In this document: positions 39,687 to 49,414 of the stretch, piece by piece
Position numbering within the stretch: position 1 is the first letter of the stretch
Layout: each line of letters begins with the position of its first letter
Assembly (NCBI GenBank): GCA_018242725.1
Contig: JAFEBI010000001.1
Location: forward strand, 315,008 to 379,007
Reading direction: 5' to 3'
DNA: 64,000 nt
Source of the DNA: Nitrospira sp.
GTDB taxonomy: Bacteria > Nitrospirota > Nitrospiria > Nitrospirales > Nitrospiraceae
Position numbers and translations under genes: made by a program
The notes under the pieces: generated by a model
What the model saw: only the letters and a program-made list of their open reading frames with translations
What the model was told of the DNA's origin: nothing
Databases searched by the model: none

Positions 39687-40331
39687 TCAATGCTGATGTT
39701 GTTGTTCTCCGCCGGCTCCTCTACTCCCGTGATCGCCGCCGTCATGTCCGCTCTGCCCGCCACCGCTCATGCCACCCATCATTCCACCCATTCCTCCTCG
39801 CCCGCCCATCATCCCACCATGGCCCATCCCTCCTGATCCGGCTCCGTGCTGACCATGACTCTTCATCTGCTCATGGACAGTACGTTCCTTTTCCCGTTGA
39901 TCCGGACTCAACAGCGTCGTGGCGCTGCGCTTACTTTTGATGGCCGCGAAGAGGCAGGCTGCTTCCGACTTTTTCAGCTGATCGATCTTTGCCTGAATGG
40001 CACTGAGGTCGGCCTGTTCATCTTCCATCAGCGCATGCAGCTCAAGTTTGGCAATTTTGGCATCGGCTTCCAACCGGGCTTCAGTACGCTTGAAGTCCAG
40101 CTGCAGGCCTTTGAGTTTGCCGATTTGTTCCGGCGTCAGGCCTATCTCTTTGGCATGTTTCAGCAAGTGCTTCAGGTAGTGCCCGCTATGCTCATCCTGT
40201 TCCTCTTGATCGTGGCCCCCATGCCCTGTCTTCCCATGGCCCTCGTCGGCAAAGGCAGAACCCATTGCCATGACGATGGCCAATGCGGTTACGCCAATTC
40301 CAGCGACCCACTGCATCTTCAGCTTCGTCAT
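39687..40331 (-). CDS. Spy/CpxP-like periplasmic protein with metal-binding tails
   Basis: A 214-residue exported protein. Signal peptide: MQWVAGIGVTALAIVMAMGSAFA region. A first His-rich stretch (DEGHGKTGHGGHDQEE) precedes a helical domain of the LTxxQ type (EIGLTPEQIGKLKGLQLDFKRTEARLEAD, then LLSPDQREKERTVHEQM), as in Spy, CpxP and ZraP. The last 55 residues are a glycine-methionine-histidine-rich tail (MGHGGMMGG-type repeats). The family binds unfolded proteins or metals in the periplasm; the tails suggest copper or zinc binding. The cytochrome at 41561 has a similar tail. Confidence 0.85.
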   Translation of the reverse strand: MTKLKMQWVAGIGVTALAIVMAMGSAFADEGHGKTGHGGHDQEEQDEHSGHYLKHLLKHAKEIGLTPEQIGKLKGLQLDFKRTEARLEADAKIAKLELHALMEDEQADLSAIQAKIDQLKKSEAACLFAAIKSKRSATTLLSPDQREKERTVHEQMKSHGQHGAGSGGMGHGGMMGGRGGMGGMMGGMSGGGQSGHDGGDHGSRGAGGEQQHQH

Positions 40332-41560: not shown

Positions 41561-42121
41561 TCATCGTGCACAGGCCTCACCTTCGCATTCGCTCATTCCA
41601 CCTTTTTGCCCGCGATGCCCCATGCCTTCTCTGCCACCCATACCCATACCGCCGCCAGGTCCCATCCCCTCTCGATGCCCCATCATACCATGCCTCCCCG
41701 AGAAGGTTTCCTCATAGCGAATGAGGGCCCAGATTTCGTTGTCGGATAAGACTGAACCAAATGCGATCATGGCAGTCCCGGGTGATCCATACTTGATGGC
41801 CCAGAAGACTTCGCCCTCGGTTCGATGCCGCCAAAAGCCATGATGCTGAAAGTTACGCGGCGCAGGATTCATACTCACCGCCCCCGGCCCTTTACCGTCT
41901 CCATCTATTCCGTGACAGGTGACGCACCCACCCTTACCGTTATACAGCGACTTACCGTTCTCAATGACTTCAGGAGTATTCGACAAAGGGTTCTTGAGAG
42001 CCCTCGCTTCAGCCAACTTATCGGCCGGTACGACCGGTTGCATCATGTGCCGTTCAGCGGCATCAGCAGACACCGCGAAGTACAGCAAAGCGACCATCAT
42101 CGTCAACAGACTCGTTTTCAT
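41561..42121 (-). CDS. monoheme cytochrome c with Met/Gly-rich tail
   Basis: A 186-residue exported cytochrome c. Signal peptide MKTSLLTMMVALLYFAVSADA. The heme site is CVTCHGIDGDGKGPGA at about residue 66; the methionine ligand is in GSPGTAMIAFG. This part resembles the last quarter of the tetraheme protein at 43643 (GSPGTGMMSF). The C-terminal 40 residues are Gly-Met-His-Arg-rich (HGMMGHREGMGPGGGMGMG type) and end in CEGEACAR, which could bind copper. It follows PPK2 by 42 bases. Confidence 0.9.
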   Translation of the reverse strand: MKTSLLTMMVALLYFAVSADAAERHMMQPVVPADKLAEARALKNPLSNTPEVIENGKSLYNGKGGCVTCHGIDGDGKGPGAVSMNPAPRNFQHHGFWRHRTEGEVFWAIKYGSPGTAMIAFGSVLSDNEIWALIRYEETFSGRHGMMGHREGMGPGGGMGMGGREGMGHRGQKGGMSECEGEACAR

Positions 42122-42163: not shown

Positions 42164-43225
42164 TTACAGATCCAGTTCCACCATCTTGCGATGGAATCGA
42201 GTAATGACGTTCGGATCAGGTGTCAACCTGATCTGAGCTTCGTCTTTTCCTTTGTAGGGCAGCAGGTTTAGGACATAGCGCAAGCTTTCCAGCCGCGCAG
42301 CCTGCTTGTCGTTCGCTTGCACGATGATCCAGGGGCTGAAGGTCGAGTGCGTTTTGCTGAACATTTCCTCTTTGCAGCGGGTATACGCGTCCCATAGCTC
42401 CTGCGCCTTTTCATCGACCGGACTCAGCTTCCACTGCTTGAGTGGATTCTGCCGTCTTGCTTCGAATCGCCTGGCTTGTTCATCTTTGGAGATAGAAAAC
42501 CAGAACTTGATGATGGTGACCCCGTCTTCATAGAGCATGTGCTCAAATTCGGGAACCTGCTGGAGAAATCGCTGGTGTTCCTTTTTTGTGCAAAATCCCA
42601 TGACCGGCTCGACCACGGCGCGGTTGTACCAACTCCGGTCGAAGAAGACGATCTCACCTTTGTTCGGCAGCTGGTGAATATAACGTTGGAAATACCACTG
42701 GCCCCGTTCTGCGTCGGTCGGCTTCGGCAGCGCCACGACTCGCATCGCGCGAGGATTCAGATGTTCGGTGAACCGGCGGATCGTGCCGCCCTTTCCGGCC
42801 GCATCCCGTCCTTCGACCAAAATGGCGATGCGCTCTCCACTGCTCTGAATCCACCGCTGCAGCCTGACCAATTCAACCTGCAATTGTCGCAAGTCCTGTT
42901 CATAGAGCAGCGTCTTGCGCACTTCCTCAATATCGACGGCTTTGTTTGCAAGGAGTTTCAGAAACCCTTTCCTTGTGTTGACCCTTCGAAGATCATCCGC
43001 GGTCAAGACGTAGCCCGGCTCACCGATGCGTCCGAGCCCCTGGGCGATCATGGCGCTGCGCGGAACCTGGTACCCATCTCCCTCTCTCGGGACCTTCGTG
43101 GGAATCGTCTCCAGCTCGTTTGCATCCGTACCGGATGCGGACGGCACGAGGTCATCGATGCCCTCTGTATCCGTCTGCCCCTTGCGATCTCGTGACTTTC
43201 TCGACGATTCTCCGCTCGCTGCCAT
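42164..43225 (-). CDS. ppk2: polyphosphate kinase 2 (PPK2)
   Basis: PPK2 moves phosphate between polyphosphate and nucleotides. The 353 residues include the Walker A segment VEGRDAAGKGGTIRRFTEHLNPR, the Walker B region EIVFFDRSWYNRAVVEPVMGFC and the lid (SKDEQARRFEARRQNPLKQWKLSPVD). The N-terminal about 75 residues are an extension beyond the catalytic core with no recognised motif. AAGGAGG lies 8 bases before the ATG at 43225. It is embedded in the redox operon between a cytochrome and a DsrE gene. Confidence 0.95.
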   Translation of the reverse strand: MAASGESSRKSRDRKGQTDTEGIDDLVPSASGTDANELETIPTKVPREGDGYQVPRSAMIAQGLGRIGEPGYVLTADDLRRVNTRKGFLKLLANKAVDIEEVRKTLLYEQDLRQLQVELVRLQRWIQSSGERIAILVEGRDAAGKGGTIRRFTEHLNPRAMRVVALPKPTDAERGQWYFQRYIHQLPNKGEIVFFDRSWYNRAVVEPVMGFCTKKEHQRFLQQVPEFEHMLYEDGVTIIKFWFSISKDEQARRFEARRQNPLKQWKLSPVDEKAQELWDAYTRCKEEMFSKTHSTFSPWIIVQANDKQAARLESLRYVLNLLPYKGKDEAQIRLTPDPNVITRFHRKMVELDL

Positions 43226-43249: not shown

Positions 43250-43609
43250 TCAAAACATCACGTTCCGGTCTCGCTCAGCCACGGCCTTGATGTAGTCCGG
43301 CATACCTTTGATCGAAGCACCGGCCACCAGATCCGCCACATTGACCTGACGAGCCACCGCACAGGCCCCACAGACCCAGATCTGCACACCAGCCGCCTGG
43401 ACTGCGGCGAGCAAATCTTTCAGCGGGGTCAAATTCACGCCGACCACATGATCCGCCACGCCTTTCCGTCCCAACGTCACCGCTTCATTCCATAACCAGA
43501 GCACCACGTCGTGTCCTTGCTCTTTGGCCGTCTTCGCGGCCATGAAGGGTAGGGTCGCCATGGTGGGATCGTCGGTTCCTCGACTGCCGGAGATAATGAA
43601 CGTTGCCAT
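43250..43609 (-). CDS. DsrE family protein (cytoplasmic)
   Basis: A 119-residue DsrE/DsrF-like protein. It opens MATFIISGSRGTDDPTMATLPFMAA and has the expected order of strands and helices, with a cysteine pair in QIWVCGACAVARQVNV in the place where persulfide-carrying DsrE proteins keep their active cysteine. A strong AAGGAG lies before the ATG at 43609. Such proteins carry sulfur between enzymes in sulfur oxidation or relay. It lies just downstream of the tetraheme cytochrome. Confidence 0.9.
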   Translation of the reverse strand: MATFIISGSRGTDDPTMATLPFMAAKTAKEQGHDVVLWLWNEAVTLGRKGVADHVVGVNLTPLKDLLAAVQAAGVQIWVCGACAVARQVNVADLVAGASIKGMPDYIKAVAERDRNVMF

Positions 43610-43642
43610 ATGTAACTCCTTAGACAAACCGATAGCTGTCGG

Positions 43643-45052
43643 CTATCGCGCCAATGATCGGATATAATGAATCAACTGCCACACCTGCTCGTCCGGCAGC
43701 GAAGCAAACGACATCATTCCGGTTCCCGGAGAGCCATTCTTGATGATCCAGAACAATTGACCGTCCGAAATGTCCCGCATCATCGTTCCGCACGTAAAGT
43801 TTCTCGGTGGTGGTACCAAGGCAGCTCCCATGAGGCCCTTGCCGTCGCCTTGCTCTCCATGGCACATCACACAGGCAACAGGCTGCGCCGTTTTGAGAAA
43901 CAGTTCTTTCCCCGCCTTGATGGCCCCTGCTGAAGACGAAAGCGGATTGGTCTTGGTCAAGAAGTCGTCCGGTGCCTTGGCCGTCTTGCGTGACTGCACA
44001 CAGACACCACCCTGCCCTCCTGCCGATGCCGGGACATCCGGAACTCCCTTGAATGTTACCTTCAAATAGGCGATCACATCCGCAACCCCCTGCTGGCCGA
44101 TCGTGAGCCCCCAGTAGGGCATATTGGGTGATTTCCCGACGGCCACTCCACCATGGTTGATGACGGTATAGAGGTACTCCATCGGCAATTTATCAAACGG
44201 CATGTTGGCGTGAATGGCGGGCTTAGGCTCCAGTCCCGATGCGGCTGGTCCGTCACCCTTGCCGGTCAATCCGTGGCATTGGGCGCAGTATTCTTTATAG
44301 AGCACTTTGCCGCGCCCGGCGTCGGCCCGACTGAACTCGGGACTCGTCCAGGGCTCGTAATACTGGAAGTCGGGAACACCCTGAACCATCAGATAGCCGA
44401 TCACGGCGCGAAGCTGTGGCTCCGTCGCGTCCGCTAGAAACTCGCCGCTGTGCGGTACAAAGTCTTGCGGATTGAGGCCGAAACGAAACAGCCAATCCTT
44501 GTCGTATCGCTGACCTGATTTCTGCAGCGCCGCGCTCTGCTGTCCTCCGATCAGTTTGCCGTTTTCTTCGATCGTATGGCAGCCGAGACACGCATGGGCC
44601 TTATAAGCCATTCCCCCGAAGGCCGCGTCGAACTTGGTGACCTTCGACAGATCGAAGGCCCCGACTGTGACGCGCGGGTCTTTGTTATGTTCGGCGAAGT
44701 AATCGGCAATCGCATCGGCTTCTCCCTCGGTGACGACCGGGTGTTTCGCCGGAACATCGGTCAGGTCCCATCGGTAGCTTTTGGTATAGAGCGGCGCCTC
44801 TTTTCCGGTCAGCCAGCGAATGAGCCAGGACCGCTGGTATTTGCTGCCGGCCCACATCAGGTCGGGGGCTCGAAGATTGAACCGAGAATCGGCCGTTCCT
44901 TCCAGCCGGTGACACTGCACACACGCTTGTTGGAGGAGATCCTTGGCCCGAGACTGATCACTCGCAAGAGAAGGATCTTGAAATAGGACCAGCAGTCCTG
45001 CCGCCAGCGTCACTGCGGTTGCAATCCTCCTTCTCATTCCCTGCAGACCCAT
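43643..45052 (-). CDS. exported tetraheme cytochrome c
   Basis: A 469-residue exported protein. From the ATG at 45052 (AGAAGGAGGGGG upstream) a signal peptide follows (IATAVTLAAGLLVLFQDPSLA). Four heme-binding motifs are visible: CVQCHRLEGT, CLGCHTIEENGK, CAQCHGLTGKGDG and CVMCHGEQGDGKG. The methionine ligands appear in NMPYWGLT and GSPGTGMMSFASLP. The last quarter resembles the single-heme cytochrome at 41561. The protein probably transfers electrons from a periplasmic oxidation to the respiratory chain. Its neighbours (OsmC, YeeE, DsrE) suggest the electron donor is a sulfur compound. Confidence 0.9.
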   Translation of the reverse strand: MGLQGMRRRIATAVTLAAGLLVLFQDPSLASDQSRAKDLLQQACVQCHRLEGTADSRFNLRAPDLMWAGSKYQRSWLIRWLTGKEAPLYTKSYRWDLTDVPAKHPVVTEGEADAIADYFAEHNKDPRVTVGAFDLSKVTKFDAAFGGMAYKAHACLGCHTIEENGKLIGGQQSAALQKSGQRYDKDWLFRFGLNPQDFVPHSGEFLADATEPQLRAVIGYLMVQGVPDFQYYEPWTSPEFSRADAGRGKVLYKEYCAQCHGLTGKGDGPAASGLEPKPAIHANMPFDKLPMEYLYTVINHGGVAVGKSPNMPYWGLTIGQQGVADVIAYLKVTFKGVPDVPASAGGQGGVCVQSRKTAKAPDDFLTKTNPLSSSAGAIKAGKELFLKTAQPVACVMCHGEQGDGKGLMGAALVPPPRNFTCGTMMRDISDGQLFWIIKNGSPGTGMMSFASLPDEQVWQLIHYIRSLAR

Positions 45053-45084
45053 CTCCCCCTCCTTCTGTTGTCTTGATTGTTCGC

Positions 45085-45504
45085 TCACGATCCCTCGGAT
45101 TTGTGATGCGTGTGTGGATTAAGTTTGATCTCAATGTTCGGTGCCGCGGCGATGGACTGATGCACCGTACAACCGTGTGCAACCTTCAGCAGCCGATCCC
45201 GTTGGTCTGCCGTGACGCGATGGGGAAGATGGATGGCAATGTCGATACGACCGACACGATGTGGCCCTTCCGTCATCGCCCATTCCGCCTCGACCGCCAA
45301 GCCTTCTTGGGCGATACCGTGTCGCCCACAGAATTGCCCGACAAAGTAAGCCACACAGCTCGCGACAGATCCGACATAGAGTTCGACCGGGGTCATGCCG
45401 GCATCCTGCCCTCCATCCTCGACCGGTTGGTCGGTGATGATTCGATGCTTTCCGCTCACAATGTCGTACCGTGTCCCGCCGTGAAAGGTCGCTGTGAGTT
45501 TCAT
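45085..45504 (-). CDS. OsmC family protein
   Basis: A 139-residue OsmC/Ohr-like protein. The ATG at 45504 overlaps the stop of the upstream YeeE gene (ATGA). Catalytic cysteines of OsmC are expected in two positions: VGSVASCVAYFVGQFCG is one, and HGCTVHQSI the other, both with cysteine present. OsmC and Ohr reduce peroxides; in sulfur gene clusters OsmC-like proteins may handle persulfides. Its place in a chain of overlapping genes with the two YeeE proteins points to a shared role. Confidence 0.9.
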   Translation of the reverse strand: MKLTATFHGGTRYDIVSGKHRIITDQPVEDGGQDAGMTPVELYVGSVASCVAYFVGQFCGRHGIAQEGLAVEAEWAMTEGPHRVGRIDIAIHLPHRVTADQRDRLLKVAHGCTVHQSIAAAPNIEIKLNPHTHHKSEGS

Positions 45505-46028
45505 GTCGCTCTTCCCTCCGGAAGTTTTACCGCCCCCCATAGACAGAGCACACCAAGCGGCAACGCAATGACCAGTCCGTTGATCCCGAGTGATTCATGA
45601 ATGGTGACCGGCCCAAACCCTCCAAGCGAGGCTAACGACGATTCGAGATCCGGCCAGAGGAAAGCAAACGTCAACGCACCGCACAGCCCTCCGACTATCG
45701 TCATCCACGCGTCCGGTTTTCCCTCAGCCGCAGCAGCGAGAGCCGTCCCTGGACAGTAGCCCGTGACGGCAAAACCCACGCCGAAGATCAAGCCTGCGAC
45801 CACGATCCCCGGCACATAGAGGTCTTTCACCTTCATATGGGCCACGCCGACCGCATCCAATGCATGCACCCCAATCAACCCTACGCCGATGGCGGTTATG
45901 ATGAGCTTCATAATCGTGAAGTCTCTCAACCGCAATGTGCCGATGATCTTCGTGTAGCTCGACGCACCCGACAGTTGAAGGATCGCACCGAATACTGCGC
46001 CGAGGACCAGGCCCAGGAGTAATGTCAT
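45501..46028 (-). CDS. YeeE/YedE family half-transporter (second)
   Basis: A 175-residue inner-membrane protein with about five helices. It has the family motif with cysteine in VGFAVTGYCPGTALAAAAEG, followed by WMTIVGGLCGALTFAFLW. YeeE/YedE proteins (such as thiosulfate importer TsuA) pass thiosulfate through conserved cysteines. Here the transporter is split into two genes; this is the half with the GYCPGT cysteine. It overlaps the first half by 4 bases and the OsmC gene by 4 bases. Confidence 0.9.
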   Translation of the reverse strand: MTLLLGLVLGAVFGAILQLSGASSYTKIIGTLRLRDFTIMKLIITAIGVGLIGVHALDAVGVAHMKVKDLYVPGIVVAGLIFGVGFAVTGYCPGTALAAAAEGKPDAWMTIVGGLCGALTFAFLWPDLESSLASLGGFGPVTIHESLGINGLVIALPLGVLCLWGAVKLPEGRAT

Positions 46029-46588
46029 CGTTCTTCTCGTTCAGGGTAGAGCCACCGAGCCGTAAGAATCGCGCTCGCGAAAAGGGCGGCGGAAAATGCG
46101 AACGAACTCACGGCTAACTGCGACACGCCGCTGATCATGTGGCCGGAGGTACATCCTCCCCCGAAACGGGCACCGAACAGTAAGAGGAACCCTCCAACAA
46201 ACGACCAGATCAGACGCTTCACCGGAGCCGGTCCGAAGCGCTCTGCCCAGATGGAAGGAACGACTCTCATACTGAATCGGTTTGTGACCGTCGCCGCCAG
46301 AAAAGCCCCGATTGGAATCCCTACGACGAAAAGAAATTCGTACGTGGCCAAAGTCCATTCTTTACCGGCTGCTTTCAGGTACGGGCTGTTTTCGGCCGCT
46401 TCGGGAAACAACGAATGTAAGAGTACGCCATCCAACACCACATACTGCGTGGAGACTCCGATCGGCTGGATGAGAGCCACCGCGACTAACAAGACGACGC
46501 CGACTGCAAGACCTCCTGCCCACCAGGGTAGAATTGGAATGATCGCTTTCTTGTGATCAGTCACCTGTTGTCGCATGCGAGTCGGCAC
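46025..46588 (-). CDS. YeeE/YedE family half-transporter (first)
   Basis: A 187-residue membrane protein with about five helices. The family cysteine motif is GARFGGGCTSGHMISG. Together with the following gene it forms a complete two-part YeeE/YedE unit, a likely thiosulfate or sulfite/polysulfide channel. The ATG overlaps neighbouring genes as in a tightly packed operon; the start may be a few codons later (second Met, MRQQ). The next gene upstream is a TsdA-like cytochrome, 8 bases away. Confidence 0.9.
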   Translation of the reverse strand: MPTRMRQQVTDHKKAIIPILPWWAGGLAVGVVLLVAVALIQPIGVSTQYVVLDGVLLHSLFPEAAENSPYLKAAGKEWTLATYEFLFVVGIPIGAFLAATVTNRFSMRVVPSIWAERFGPAPVKRLIWSFVGGFLLLFGARFGGGCTSGHMISGVSQLAVSSFAFSAALFASAILTARWLYPEREER

Positions 46589-46596
46589 TCATGAAG

Positions 46597-47451
46597 TCAA
46601 TAGGGTACATCCGCCGGCTTACCCCCCTTCGGCCAATCATGAATCTTGTCGGGAAAGTCCGGTCGAGGCTGCGTATTGATGTAGGCTGCCGTATCGAGGG
46701 CTTCATCGTCCGTCACCGTCCAGCCCCAACCTCGAGGCATGTTGGCTTTGATAAAACCGGCAGCCACGCTGACTCGCGCCATTCCCGCGCCGATATTGTA
46801 CGAATGCGGTCCCCATACCGGCGGCGCCGCCCTGGTGCCTTGTCCGTCGGAACCATGGCAGAAGACACATTTTTTCTCAAAGACCTTTTTGCCGTTGACA
46901 GCGTCCGGTTGATGAGTCGAGGTCAGGCGCGGAATTCCTCGCCACGGCACCGTACTACCGGCCGGCAAAGTTTTGGACAACCATTCGATGTAGGCCACGA
47001 TACCCGTCAGTTTCACACTGTCCGGTGGGAGAGGCGTCCCGTTCATACTGCGTTCGAAACATTCGTTGATCCGATCGGCCAATGTCATCTGACGACCGGC
47101 TCGCTCACGATACCGCGGATAGAGCGTACTGATGCCGACGAATGACGCGGCATTCGGGTTAAGCCCTCCGTCCAAATGACAATTCGTGCAGTTGAGCGCA
47201 TTACCGATATACCGCTTTCCGTACACTTGCGTATTGACGACCATCTCATAGCCCAGTCGAATCTGTTCGCCTCGCAAGTCACCTGGTATGCTTTCCGGGG
47301 AAGGCGGGGCGAATAACGCATACGCCGTCGACTCCGTACTCGGGCGACTGGTCTCCTCCTCACTCTCCGTCACCCGTGGAGGCGGGACACAACTGATCAC
47401 CCCACCAAGCGTACACACCAGCACGGCCCAGGCGGCGACTGGTCGGTTCAT
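46597..47451 (-). CDS. diheme cytochrome c, thiosulfate dehydrogenase (TsdA)-like lipoprotein
   Basis: A 284-residue lipoprotein (lipobox GGVISC at residue 21). It shows the TsdA pattern. Heme 1 motif CTNCHLDGG is followed by TLADRINECFERSMNG, where the cysteine in RINECFERS matches the axial cysteine ligand of heme 1 in TsdA. Heme 2 motif is CVFCHGSDGQG. TsdA oxidises two thiosulfate to tetrathionate (or the reverse) in the periplasm. It ends 8 bases before the YeeE genes, which would supply or remove thiosulfate. Substrate is inferred from the family. Confidence 0.88.
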   Translation of the reverse strand: MNRPVAAWAVLVCTLGGVISCVPPPRVTESEEETSRPSTESTAYALFAPPSPESIPGDLRGEQIRLGYEMVVNTQVYGKRYIGNALNCTNCHLDGGLNPNAASFVGISTLYPRYRERAGRQMTLADRINECFERSMNGTPLPPDSVKLTGIVAYIEWLSKTLPAGSTVPWRGIPRLTSTHQPDAVNGKKVFEKKCVFCHGSDGQGTRAAPPVWGPHSYNIGAGMARVSVAAGFIKANMPRGWGWTVTDDEALDTAAYINTQPRPDFPDKIHDWPKGGKPADVPY

Positions 47452-47461
47452 CGATTCCCCC

Positions 47462-47695
47462 TCATTTCTTCGAACCGGACACAGGAGGACAGGTACTGAT
47501 CCCCAGCACTGAGAACAGGGGGCAATACCCGACCGCCCCAGTGAGCAGCAATATAGTTCCTACGGCAATAGCTCCTACGGTAAGCGCGCCCCCCGCCGCA
47601 CCGGTCGAAAACCCTGCAAAGAGGCCTATCATGATTGCCACCACCCCGGCTCCGATCCGTATCGGTCGTTCGATTCCCCCCACATTACATGTCAT
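47462..47695 (-). CDS. DUF2892 (YgaP-type) membrane protein
   Basis: A 77-residue membrane protein of the DUF2892 type, starting MTCNVGGIERPIRIGAGVVA, with two helices and a GAVGYCPLFSVLGISTC ending. This is the short membrane part often found next to rhodanese domains (YgaP). The cysteines at the start and in GYCPL may bind a metal or carry sulfur. It lies 10 bases upstream of the TsdA-like gene. Confidence 0.92.
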   Translation of the reverse strand: MTCNVGGIERPIRIGAGVVAIMIGLFAGFSTGAAGGALTVGAIAVGTILLLTGAVGYCPLFSVLGISTCPPVSGSKK

Positions 47696-47782
47696 GCCCA
47701 TCCCTCCTCATCGCATCAATGACAACCATTCCATTTCCGCAACTGGCTCGTATGAGACACCTTCCGGCGATTGGATTCATTT

Positions 47783-48172
47783 TTATGGCCGGCCAGGAGA
47801 CTCGATCTTGAATGTGCGCACATAGGCCAACACATCCCAGATTTCTTCATCCGAGAGCGCATGTTTCCACGCACCCATGACCGTGTTCGGTTTGCCGTCG
47901 TGAATTCGACGAAACAACGCCCCATCCAGCCGGCTCTGAACGGCAAGCGATGTGAGGTCTGCCGGAGGTGGAACGAATTGTAGTCCTCGTACGCCTTTGC
48001 CGTCGATTCCATGACAGAGTATACAGGTGTTCACGTAAATCTCCCGTCCGGTCACTGCGTCGCCTTCTTTGGCAAGAACCTCAGGCTCTTTGAATCCAAA
48101 ATTACTGAACCCCAGTCCACACAGCCCACCTACCACTGCGCACAACACCATCCCTTGTACCGTCATACGCAT
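47783..48172 (-). CDS. small monoheme cytochrome c
   Basis: A 129-residue protein with a signal/anchor (MVLCAVVGGLCGLGFSNF region) and a heme site CILCHGIDGKGVRG. The methionine ligand is probably in KPNTVMGAWKHALS, followed by EIWDVLAYVRTF at the end. It resembles the other small cytochromes of the window. It is the last short gene before the DUF2892/TsdA/YeeE part of the operon, 82 bases upstream. Confidence 0.9.
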   Translation of the reverse strand: MRMTVQGMVLCAVVGGLCGLGFSNFGFKEPEVLAKEGDAVTGREIYVNTCILCHGIDGKGVRGLQFVPPPADLTSLAVQSRLDGALFRRIHDGKPNTVMGAWKHALSDEEIWDVLAYVRTFKIESPGRP

Positions 48173-48467
48173 AGCTTGTCCCTTCTCTTGATAAGACCTT
48201 GCGATGACTGTGCCACTCTGTCGCAGAGCAGAAAGAGAGCTTTTTCTCGATTCGTCGAGAAGTTACCGGACAGATTCTCGGTAGCGAGAGGAGCGATAAC
48301 GAAGATTGCAGACAAATGCCACAATGCCTCCATACCCACTGGCGCAGGATGCTACAGTGTTCAGTCAACAATCGTCGCTTGGGTCTCGAACGTGAGTCCC
48401 AAGTTTCGAGTTTCAGGTTCTGGAGGCGGTTATCAGGAGCCTGAAACACGAAGCTCGCAATTGTGAA

Positions 48468-48902
48468 TCAACAAATCGTGGGTTCCAGTGTGACCTTGGC
48501 TTTCATCGAGTTGGAAATCAGACAATTATGCTCTGCTTTTTCGATGAGTTCCTTGGCTTTGGCTGCATCACCGCCGGGCGTCAACGTAATTGAAGGCCTG
48601 ATGGTGATCGCCGTGAATTGAAATTTCCCCTCCACGATCTCCAGCCGTCCTTCCGCCGTACTCTCGTACGAAGAAAAGGCAAGACCGGCTCGTTCCGCGA
48701 CGGCGAGAAACGTCGTCATCAAACAGATGTTGGCGGACGCCACAAAGAGGTCTTCGGGAGACCAGATATTCTCATGCCCTTTGAATTCCGGTGGGGTCGC
48801 CACCTGCACATCGGGTTTTCCTGCGCACGAGATCATGCCCTTGCGTTGCTCTGTCCACTTCACCGAGGTCTGATACAGATACACTTTACTCTTGGATTCC
48901 AT
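48468..48902 (-). CDS. OsmC family protein
   Basis: A 144-residue OsmC-like protein. It starts MESKSKVYLYQTSVKWTEQRKGMI, and the family core includes the FVASANICLMTTFLAVAERAG helix, with a cysteine in the place of the first OsmC cysteine, and the second at ELIEKAEHNCLISNSM. It is a second OsmC-type protein in the sulfur cluster. It is 48 bases downstream of a DsrE gene. Confidence 0.9.
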   Translation of the reverse strand: MESKSKVYLYQTSVKWTEQRKGMISCAGKPDVQVATPPEFKGHENIWSPEDLFVASANICLMTTFLAVAERAGLAFSSYESTAEGRLEIVEGKFQFTAITIRPSITLTPGGDAAKAKELIEKAEHNCLISNSMKAKVTLEPTIC

Positions 48903-48949
48903 TCACCCTCCTTTTTTCTTCCGTCTTCAGCTAACGGCTGTCCACTCCA

Positions 48950-49414
48950 TCACGGCTTGATATAGGCCCACCCTTGCTCCTGTCTCTCCAGCAGTCTCAC
49001 CATTGCCGGCACGGTGTCGCCGACTTCGTCGACCAAATCCTCTCGTGTCACCTTCATGGTCTTCATGGTATTTGAACAAGCCGTGTAGTTCACACCGTAT
49101 GCGTGCCGCAGCTCGGTCAGCTCCGCGGCAAACGGCGTACCCTTCTTGATGAGAAGTGGAAGTCCGGCCCCATGTACGACCAGCTCAACCCTGAGACTCT
49201 GCGGCGAAAACTCCTGGTAGAGATTCTTGATATTGTTAAGCGCGCCACGTTGGACTTTTTCATCACCGGAATTCAGATGGAGAACGACACGGTGCGGCCG
49301 ACTGTTTTCCGGTGCCACGTCGGCGCCTGCACCCCATGGTGGTTGCCCAAGCACCATGCCTGCGGTGCACGCGAGAGAGAGCAGCATCCATCTCAACTTC
49401 TGAGAATGCCTCAT
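48950..49414 (-). CDS. exported DsrE family protein
   Basis: A 154-residue DsrE-like protein with a signal peptide (LRWMLLSLACTAGMVLG, cleavage about residue 23-31), which is unusual since most DsrE proteins are cytoplasmic. The mature part follows the family (VVLHLNSGDEKVQRGALNNIKNLYQEF, then LRVELVVHGAGLPLLIKKGTPF) and keeps a single cysteine in NYTACSNTMKTMK, where the sulfur-carrying cysteine sits. Together with the TsdA-like and OsmC proteins it suggests periplasmic handling of persulfides. It is the first gene of the run. Confidence 0.9.
   Translation of the reverse strand: MRHSQKLRWMLLSLACTAGMVLGQPPWGAGADVAPENSRPHRVVLHLNSGDEKVQRGALNNIKNLYQEFSPQSLRVELVVHGAGLPLLIKKGTPFAAELTELRHAYGVNYTACSNTMKTMKVTREDLVDEVGDTVPAMVRLLERQEQGWAYIKP

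Follow-up and report, generated by a model that had tools for sequence, protein, structure and literature searches.

We analysed a stretch of 64,000 nucleotides of a Nitrospira genome (G000, contig C11:315008-379007, in an assembly of 4.0 Mb; hereafter the window) and found on its minus strand a run of genes that is probably an accessory sulfur-oxidation operon. In this operon, a TsdA-type dihaem cytochrome would convert thiosulfate to tetrathionate and deliver the electrons to a tetrahaem cytochrome (cyt4) and small cytochromes, and SorAB, where present, would do likewise with sulfite. The best reading of the locus is a sulfite dehydrogenase/tetrahaem cytochrome unit that was joined by TsdA, forming an accessory entry of electrons from thiosulfate, and in part sulfite, into cytochrome c of nitrifiers. 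Gene content, gene order, their conservation and the catalytic residues are established at the sequence level and are described below.

Gene order and its conservation

The original prediction, drawn from the window's letters, comprised ten genes, two ATGA overlaps and an 8-base gap between TsdA and YeeE. Open reading frames and sequence reading, followed by profile searches (Pfam, NCBIfam), recovered all of these, with every gene on the minus strand. It had also let the run end at 43250. The close spacing was found as described, but the run continues beyond that end through PPK2 and cytX. The genes are as follows:

48950-49414, minus strand: periplasmic DsrE-family protein with a hydrophobic, signal-like N-terminal segment (PF02635, E 2.7e-7)
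48468-48902, minus strand: OsmC2, OsmC/Ohr family (PF02566, E 2.5e-18)
47783-48172, minus strand: small monohaem c-type cytochrome (cytS) with one CxxCH (PF13442, E 1.4e-11)
47462-47701, minus strand: small membrane protein ygaP without rhodanese domain (PF11127, formerly DUF2892 and now YgaP-like TM, E 3.1e-17)
46597-47451, minus strand: TsdA-type dihaem cytochrome, putative lipoprotein (PF21342 SoxA-TsdA, E 3.2e-13, plus a cytochrome c domain)
46025-46588, minus strand: PmpA/YedE-type half transporter, equal to the C-terminal half of YeeE (PF04143 profile positions 170-309)
45501-46028, minus strand: PmpB/YedE-type half transporter, equal to the N-terminal half of YeeE (PF04143 profile positions 15-150)
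45085-45504, minus strand: OsmC1, OsmC family (PF02566, E 9e-13)
43643-45052, minus strand: tetrahaem c-type cytochrome (cyt4), exported, with four CxxCH motifs
43250-43609, minus strand: cytoplasmic DsrE/YchN-type protein with a conserved CxxC (PF02635, E 6.9e-20)
42164-43225, minus strand: PPK2, polyphosphate kinase 2 (PF03976, E 6e-96)
41561-42121, minus strand: cytX, monohaem cytochrome with a His/Met-rich C-terminus (PF13442, E 1.2e-10)

The intergenic gaps measure 10 bases (YgaP-TsdA), 8 (TsdA-YeeE), 32 (OsmC-cyt4) and 33 (cyt4-DsrE), and past 43250 they measure 24 (DsrE-PPK2) and 42 (PPK2-cytX). The two ATGA overlaps, of four bases each, lie at 46025-46028 and 45501-45504. The most probable start of cyt4 is at 45052, with a strong Shine-Dalgarno sequence (AGGAGGGGG) just upstream. 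The preferred start of the second DsrE, at 43609, gives 119 residues and matches the lengths of homologues, and the OsmC1 start was refined to 45504. Because a 295-base gap separates OsmC2 from the small cytochrome, the DsrE-OsmC2 pair may be a separate unit. Scans for consensus promoters and terminators returned counts near those of shuffled sequence and do not settle the transcript limits.

We then surveyed 296 Nitrospirota genomes with the TsdA-like protein as query (E <= 1e-20). Matches occur in 88 of them, including 35 of the 40 genomes sampled from the genus of the window, and are less frequent elsewhere; the window genome has a single copy, and the named relatives of the gene are Nitrospira. 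Around the homologues, 74 named loci were retrieved, 61 of them from Nitrospira. The recurrent order is cytS-ygaP-tsdA-(pmpAB)-osmC1-(insert)-cyt4-dsrE-ppk2-cytX. All four of tsdA, osmC1, cyt4 and dsrE are held by 42 of the 61 Nitrospira loci, and every one of these 42 keeps their order and strand, so the arrangement first noted in the window is conserved in related genomes. In the whole-genome comparison, tsdA and cyt4 lie no more than 7 kb apart in 54 of the 55 genomes having both. PPK2 (38/61) and cytX (41/61) are conserved followers in the named Nitrospira loci. The tsdA loci of Burkholderia, Gemmatimonadetes, Bacillaceae and Aliidiomarina have no other window genes nearby. As the arrangement is conserved across genomes, chance is excluded.

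Two observations concern the downstream end of the run. PPK2 (42164-43225) trails the sulfur genes in relatives too. Long His/Met-rich C-terminal tails are found both in cytX (41561-42121) and in a Spy/heavy-metal-resistance-like protein (39687-40331), which suggests putative metal binding beside the sulfur operon.

TsdA-type cytochrome and its direction

The TsdA-like protein has its best PDB match in Allochromatium vinosum TsdA (AvTsdA; 4wqc, E 7.9e-56; 4wq7, E 5.1e-55), with SoxA far behind (8e-6). It is dihaem, with PF21342 at residues 86-163 followed by PF13442 at residues 184-258, and both CxxCH motifs are invariant among the homologues covering them. Cys131 corresponds to Cys96 of AvTsdA and Cys138 of Campylobacter jejuni TsdA (CjTsdA) at the axial position of haem 1; it is present in all 73 sequences covering the site, in agreement, at the sequence level, with the cysteine ligand that had been proposed for this haem. 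Met238 corresponds to the haem-2 ligand Met209 of AvTsdA (74/74 homologues), and Arg117 is invariant in the homologue alignment. The protein thus shares with the A. vinosum and C. jejuni enzymes (4wq7, 4v2k) both domains, both CxxCH motifs, the His/Cys ligands of haem 1, the conserved Arg, the CFERS motif and the haem-2 Met, at E ~1e-55. Its AlphaFold model is moderate (pLDDT 65), and the nine best Foldseek PDB matches are all TsdA entries, which largely repeats the sequence result. Membership in the TsdA family is well supported.

Several features set the protein apart. Unlike the described TsdA enzymes, it is a putative lipoprotein, with a lipobox-like VISC at the N-terminus, and it has Asn in place of Lys208 of AvTsdA at haem 2. 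TsdB is not among the operon partners of its gene, which are the tetrahaem cytochrome, OsmC, DsrE and frequently SorAB. The residue before the haem-2 Met is Asn237 (Asn in 70 of 74 homologues) and not the Lys of the AvTsdA ligand switch. This Lys is not a defining feature of TsdA, as it is absent in CjTsdA; the haem-2 Met is strictly conserved among TsdAs while the Lys position is variable (PMC5146829; PMC6879331).

The claim that the protein oxidizes thiosulfate therefore stands as to family, while the direction, thiosulfate oxidation or tetrathionate reduction, is left open by the sequence because the Asn-Met pair at haem 2 matches that of the bidirectional C. jejuni enzyme. In CjTsdA, which is biased to tetrathionate reduction and acts as tetrathionate reductase in vivo, the Met is paired with Asn254, and a Lys stands two positions ahead of that Asn (PMC5146829). 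The window protein, with its own Asn-Met pair and preceding Lys, might accordingly run reductively at low oxygen on electrons from the cytochrome pool. We consider this improbable: the position is variable among TsdAs, an exchange at this site failed to convert the bias of CjTsdA (PMC5146829), the enzyme's pairing in relatives with a sulfite dehydrogenase speaks for oxidation, and the cytochrome c pool of a nitrite oxidizer stands at high potential. The nitrite/nitrate couple has a potential of about +420 mV. For thiosulfate/tetrathionate, PMC9562282 gives +198 mV. Since this value lies below the high-potential cytochrome c of nitrite oxidation, thiosulfate oxidation would be favoured.

Tetrahaem cytochrome, sulfite dehydrogenase and putative sulfane-sulfur proteins

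The four CxxCH motifs of cyt4 are conserved among homologues. In Nitrospira defluvii (L081) and Nitrospira moscoviensis (L076), the insert between osmC1 and cyt4 encodes a molybdenum enzyme and then a dihaem cytochrome. The former has PF00174 and PF03404 and scores best in NCBIfam to SorA (NF052245, E 7.6e-97), with SorT and SoxC ranking behind it; the latter is SorB-like, with two CxxCH in about 211 residues. This pair, directly upstream of cyt4, resembles the SorAB of Nitrospirales (PMC12342949; PMC7078480), but SorAB is missing from the window copy: neither the SorA molybdenum subunit (PF00174 plus PF03404) nor the SorB-like cytochrome is found at the locus, and the only SorA-related enzyme in the window genome is of SoxC type (37%). 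The SorA-like gene and TsdA are close together in 31 of the 34 genomes having both. For SorA and cyt4 the count is 41 of 44, with TsdA lacking from 12 of the 41; another 26 genomes hold TsdA and cyt4 together with no adjacent SorA. These counts suggest SorA-SorB-cyt4 as a unit able to exist by itself, to which TsdA was added. Among the TsdA-bearing genomes of the genus, those without ammonia monooxygenase (AMO) mostly have SorA alongside (10 of 13) and those with AMO rarely do (1 of 12; Fisher p 0.001), as if comammox lines may have lost SorA; shared ancestry may explain the pattern as well as function does. No AMO was found in the window genome, whose assembly is 96% complete, so that amo genes may be missing from it.

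The prediction that electrons pass from TsdA to cyt4 agrees with the close neighbourhood of the two genes in nearly all genomes having both. However, cyt4 is not an acceptor for TsdA alone, and a role as a private TsdB was rejected, since in those 12 genomes it has SorA for a neighbour and TsdA is missing. One could go further and regard the locus as a decaying sulfite dehydrogenase/cytochrome unit, with TsdA a bystander and cyt4 serving another dehydrogenase such as the orphan SoxCD. The same 12 genomes agree with this, as does the window genome, which is without SorA but has SoxCD and a second copy of cyt4. We hold it to be very improbable, given the 26 genomes with TsdA and cyt4 but no adjacent SorA and the catalytic residues that are intact across homologues.

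Orphan soxCD has been described in Nitrospirales (PMC11033732), and the window genome has such a pair at a separate locus, at about 389,600-391,400 of the same contig (L122 10577-12410), about 11 kb beyond the window. Its SoxC scores 569.6 bits with TIGR04555, above cut-off, and a c-type cytochrome of its own lies alongside; the locus-associated enzyme of relatives, in contrast, scores best to SorA and not to SoxC. The second cyt4 paralogue (about 76%) is at L121 879-2423 (G000:C25:1035-2420) and is followed by two cupredoxin-like exported open reading frames (L121 2570-3094 and 3306-3773); the first of these has a close relative between cyt4 and dsrE in L044 (11833-12369). In G009, G110, G295, G153 and others, mostly where SorA is present, cyt4 is shortened to about 350 residues with the fourth haem domain lost.

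Of the two adjacent YeeE genes, one aligns to the C-terminal half of YeeE/TsuA and the other to the N-terminal half. Each half has a single conserved Cys: Cys146 of PmpA corresponds to TsuA Cys293 (6leo/8k1r alignment) and Cys92 of PmpB to TsuA Cys91 (6leo alignment), both in 17/17 homologues. Judged by its sequence, the pair is of the known split type, described as PmpAB/YedE1E2; the conserved cysteines of YedE1E2 are essential, as are Cys91 and Cys293 of TsuA (PMC11582611, PMC10812762). The window halves are longer than those (175 and 187 residues versus about 130), and their neighbours are TsdA and OsmC, with no persulfide dioxygenase among them. SoxT1A/TsuA, a full-length YeeE found with Sox or TsuB, belongs to the same transporter superfamily and likewise lies beside sulfur genes, but is a single protein of 330-350 residues with three Cys and nine helices, whereas the window version is split.

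Thiosulfate transport, which had been proposed for the YeeE genes, is not supported, and TsuA-type uptake was rejected as the default reading: what the PmpAB/YedE1E2 type has been shown to import is zero-valent sulfur (PMC10812762, PMC11582611), and the transporter is lacking from most operon copies. This import activity, which needs one Cys per half, was demonstrated only with the Cupriavidus pinatubonensis and Sinorhizobium meliloti proteins; it was not seen in the YedE3 proteins of full length that were assayed (PMC10812762). PmpAB is an optional part, missing from most Nitrospira copies of the locus; PmpB at >65% identity occurs in 14 sampled genomes of the family, always beside tsdA or cyt4.

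The remaining proteins also keep their cysteines. OsmC1 has three invariant Cys (49, 58 and 111, in the numbering of the alignment copy without the first residue; 58/58), and OsmC2, which is near E. coli OsmC (1nye/1qwi), has Cys60 and Cys127 invariant (26/26). Both keep the family's Cys pair about 60-67 residues apart (Cys49/Cys111 and Cys60/Cys127), and both fall below the cut-offs of the named NCBIfam subfamilies. Cys113 is the sole invariant Cys of the periplasmic DsrE (16/16 homologues), whose nearest solved relative is MTH1491 (E 1.4e-14). In the cytoplasmic DsrE, which matches YchN (1jx7) weakly (E 0.004), both Cys of the CxxC are kept in at least 50 of 51 homologues. The CxxCH of the small cytochrome is invariant (51/51). 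The OsmC and DsrE proteins would, by inference, act on persulfides; the open-access literature searched held nothing useful on OsmC with sulfane sulfur or persulfide.

Proposed entry of sulfur electrons in nitrifying Nitrospira

The mechanism that we infer covers the reaction direction, the electron partners and the roles of OsmC, DsrE and PmpAB. TsdA, as a periplasmic lipoprotein, would couple two thiosulfates to tetrathionate at haem 1 with its Cys131 ligand. From haem 2 (Met238), electrons would reach the exported cyt4 along with the small cytochromes, and go on through the cytochrome c pool to a terminal oxidase. In many relatives, the SorA-like and SorB-like proteins of the same operon would feed electrons from sulfite to the same tetrahaem cytochrome. 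The window copy, without SorA and SorB, has PmpAB, of a type importing zero-valent (sulfane) sulfur, and the two OsmC and two DsrE proteins may bind or reduce the persulfides and polysulfides that arise.

Searches of the window genome delimit this mechanism. No match to SoxB was found there; hence TsdA does not serve as accessory to a complete Sox system, and the locus as part of one was rejected. SoxY gave no match either, though the control of that search was silent too. A cytoplasmic reverse-Dsr pathway downstream was rejected, as the genome has no DsrA above cut-off, and a weak match could be an ordinary sulfite/nitrite reductase.

Several points weigh against the proposed operon function. 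Lacking DsrA above cut-off, the genome offers sulfur imported by PmpAB no evident oxidative fate, and no enzyme consuming tetrathionate was identified. The haem-2 motif KxNM is of the C. jejuni type, and the C. jejuni enzyme favours tetrathionate reduction. The AlphaFold model of cyt4 has a pLDDT of 32, and since 12 genomes have SorA and cyt4 but no TsdA, an electron link between TsdA and cyt4 is drawn from gene neighbourhood.

The same genes could mainly serve protection from sulfur stress by detoxifying thiosulfate, persulfide, sulfite and peroxide. TsdA, OsmC, DsrE and PmpAB would then keep the levels of sulfane sulfur and peroxides down, with the electrons discharged into the cytochrome pool and not used for growth. 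We regard this as rather unlikely. The two OsmC genes, of a peroxide-reductase family, and the two DsrE genes speak for it, together with a YedE1E2-type transporter that raises cellular persulfide and lowers reactive oxygen species (PMC10812762), the downstream sulfur-oxidation enzymes not found in the SoxB and DsrA searches, and a gene set that differs between genomes. However, the strict coupling to haem-rich exported cytochromes and a sulfite dehydrogenase fits electron harvest, and OsmC persulfide chemistry was absent from the literature searched.

In the part concerned with sulfur, a 2025 comparison of Nitrospirales lists sulfide:quinone reductase (SQR) and SorAB, the latter almost only in lineage IV, and that section leaves TsdA unmentioned (PMC12342949). 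Sulfite dehydrogenase has been reported in comammox (PMC7078480), sulfite:cytochrome c oxidoreductase in Nitrospira marina (PMC8115632), sox genes for thiosulfate oxidation in metagenome-assembled genomes of clade B comammox (PMC10504367), and TsdA in the unrelated nitrite oxidizer 'Ca. Nitrotoga' (PMC9239080). We found no paper on TsdA or this operon in Nitrospira within the open-access literature, subscription papers lying outside the search. Each enzyme on its own is of a known kind; what is new is their combination and the host that carries it.

About a dozen genes in fixed order across many nitrite- and ammonia-oxidizing Nitrospira look like a side-entrance for thiosulfate electrons and, among many relatives, for those of sulfite as well. 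Tentatively, canonical nitrite oxidizers and comammox Nitrospira may be facultative oxidizers of thiosulfate (in many species also of sulfite), with TsdA and SorAB feeding one dedicated tetrahaem cytochrome and OsmC, DsrE and PmpAB forming an undescribed kind of persulfide relay from periplasm to cytoplasm. The TsdA/SorAB/tetrahaem operon is present in the cultured N. moscoviensis and N. defluvii, which would allow a direct test of whether a nitrite oxidizer can live on reduced sulfur. In soils, waters and treatment plants, Nitrospira rank with the most widespread nitrifiers, and the operon would connect nitrification with the thiosulfate/tetrathionate cycle where oxic and anoxic zones meet.

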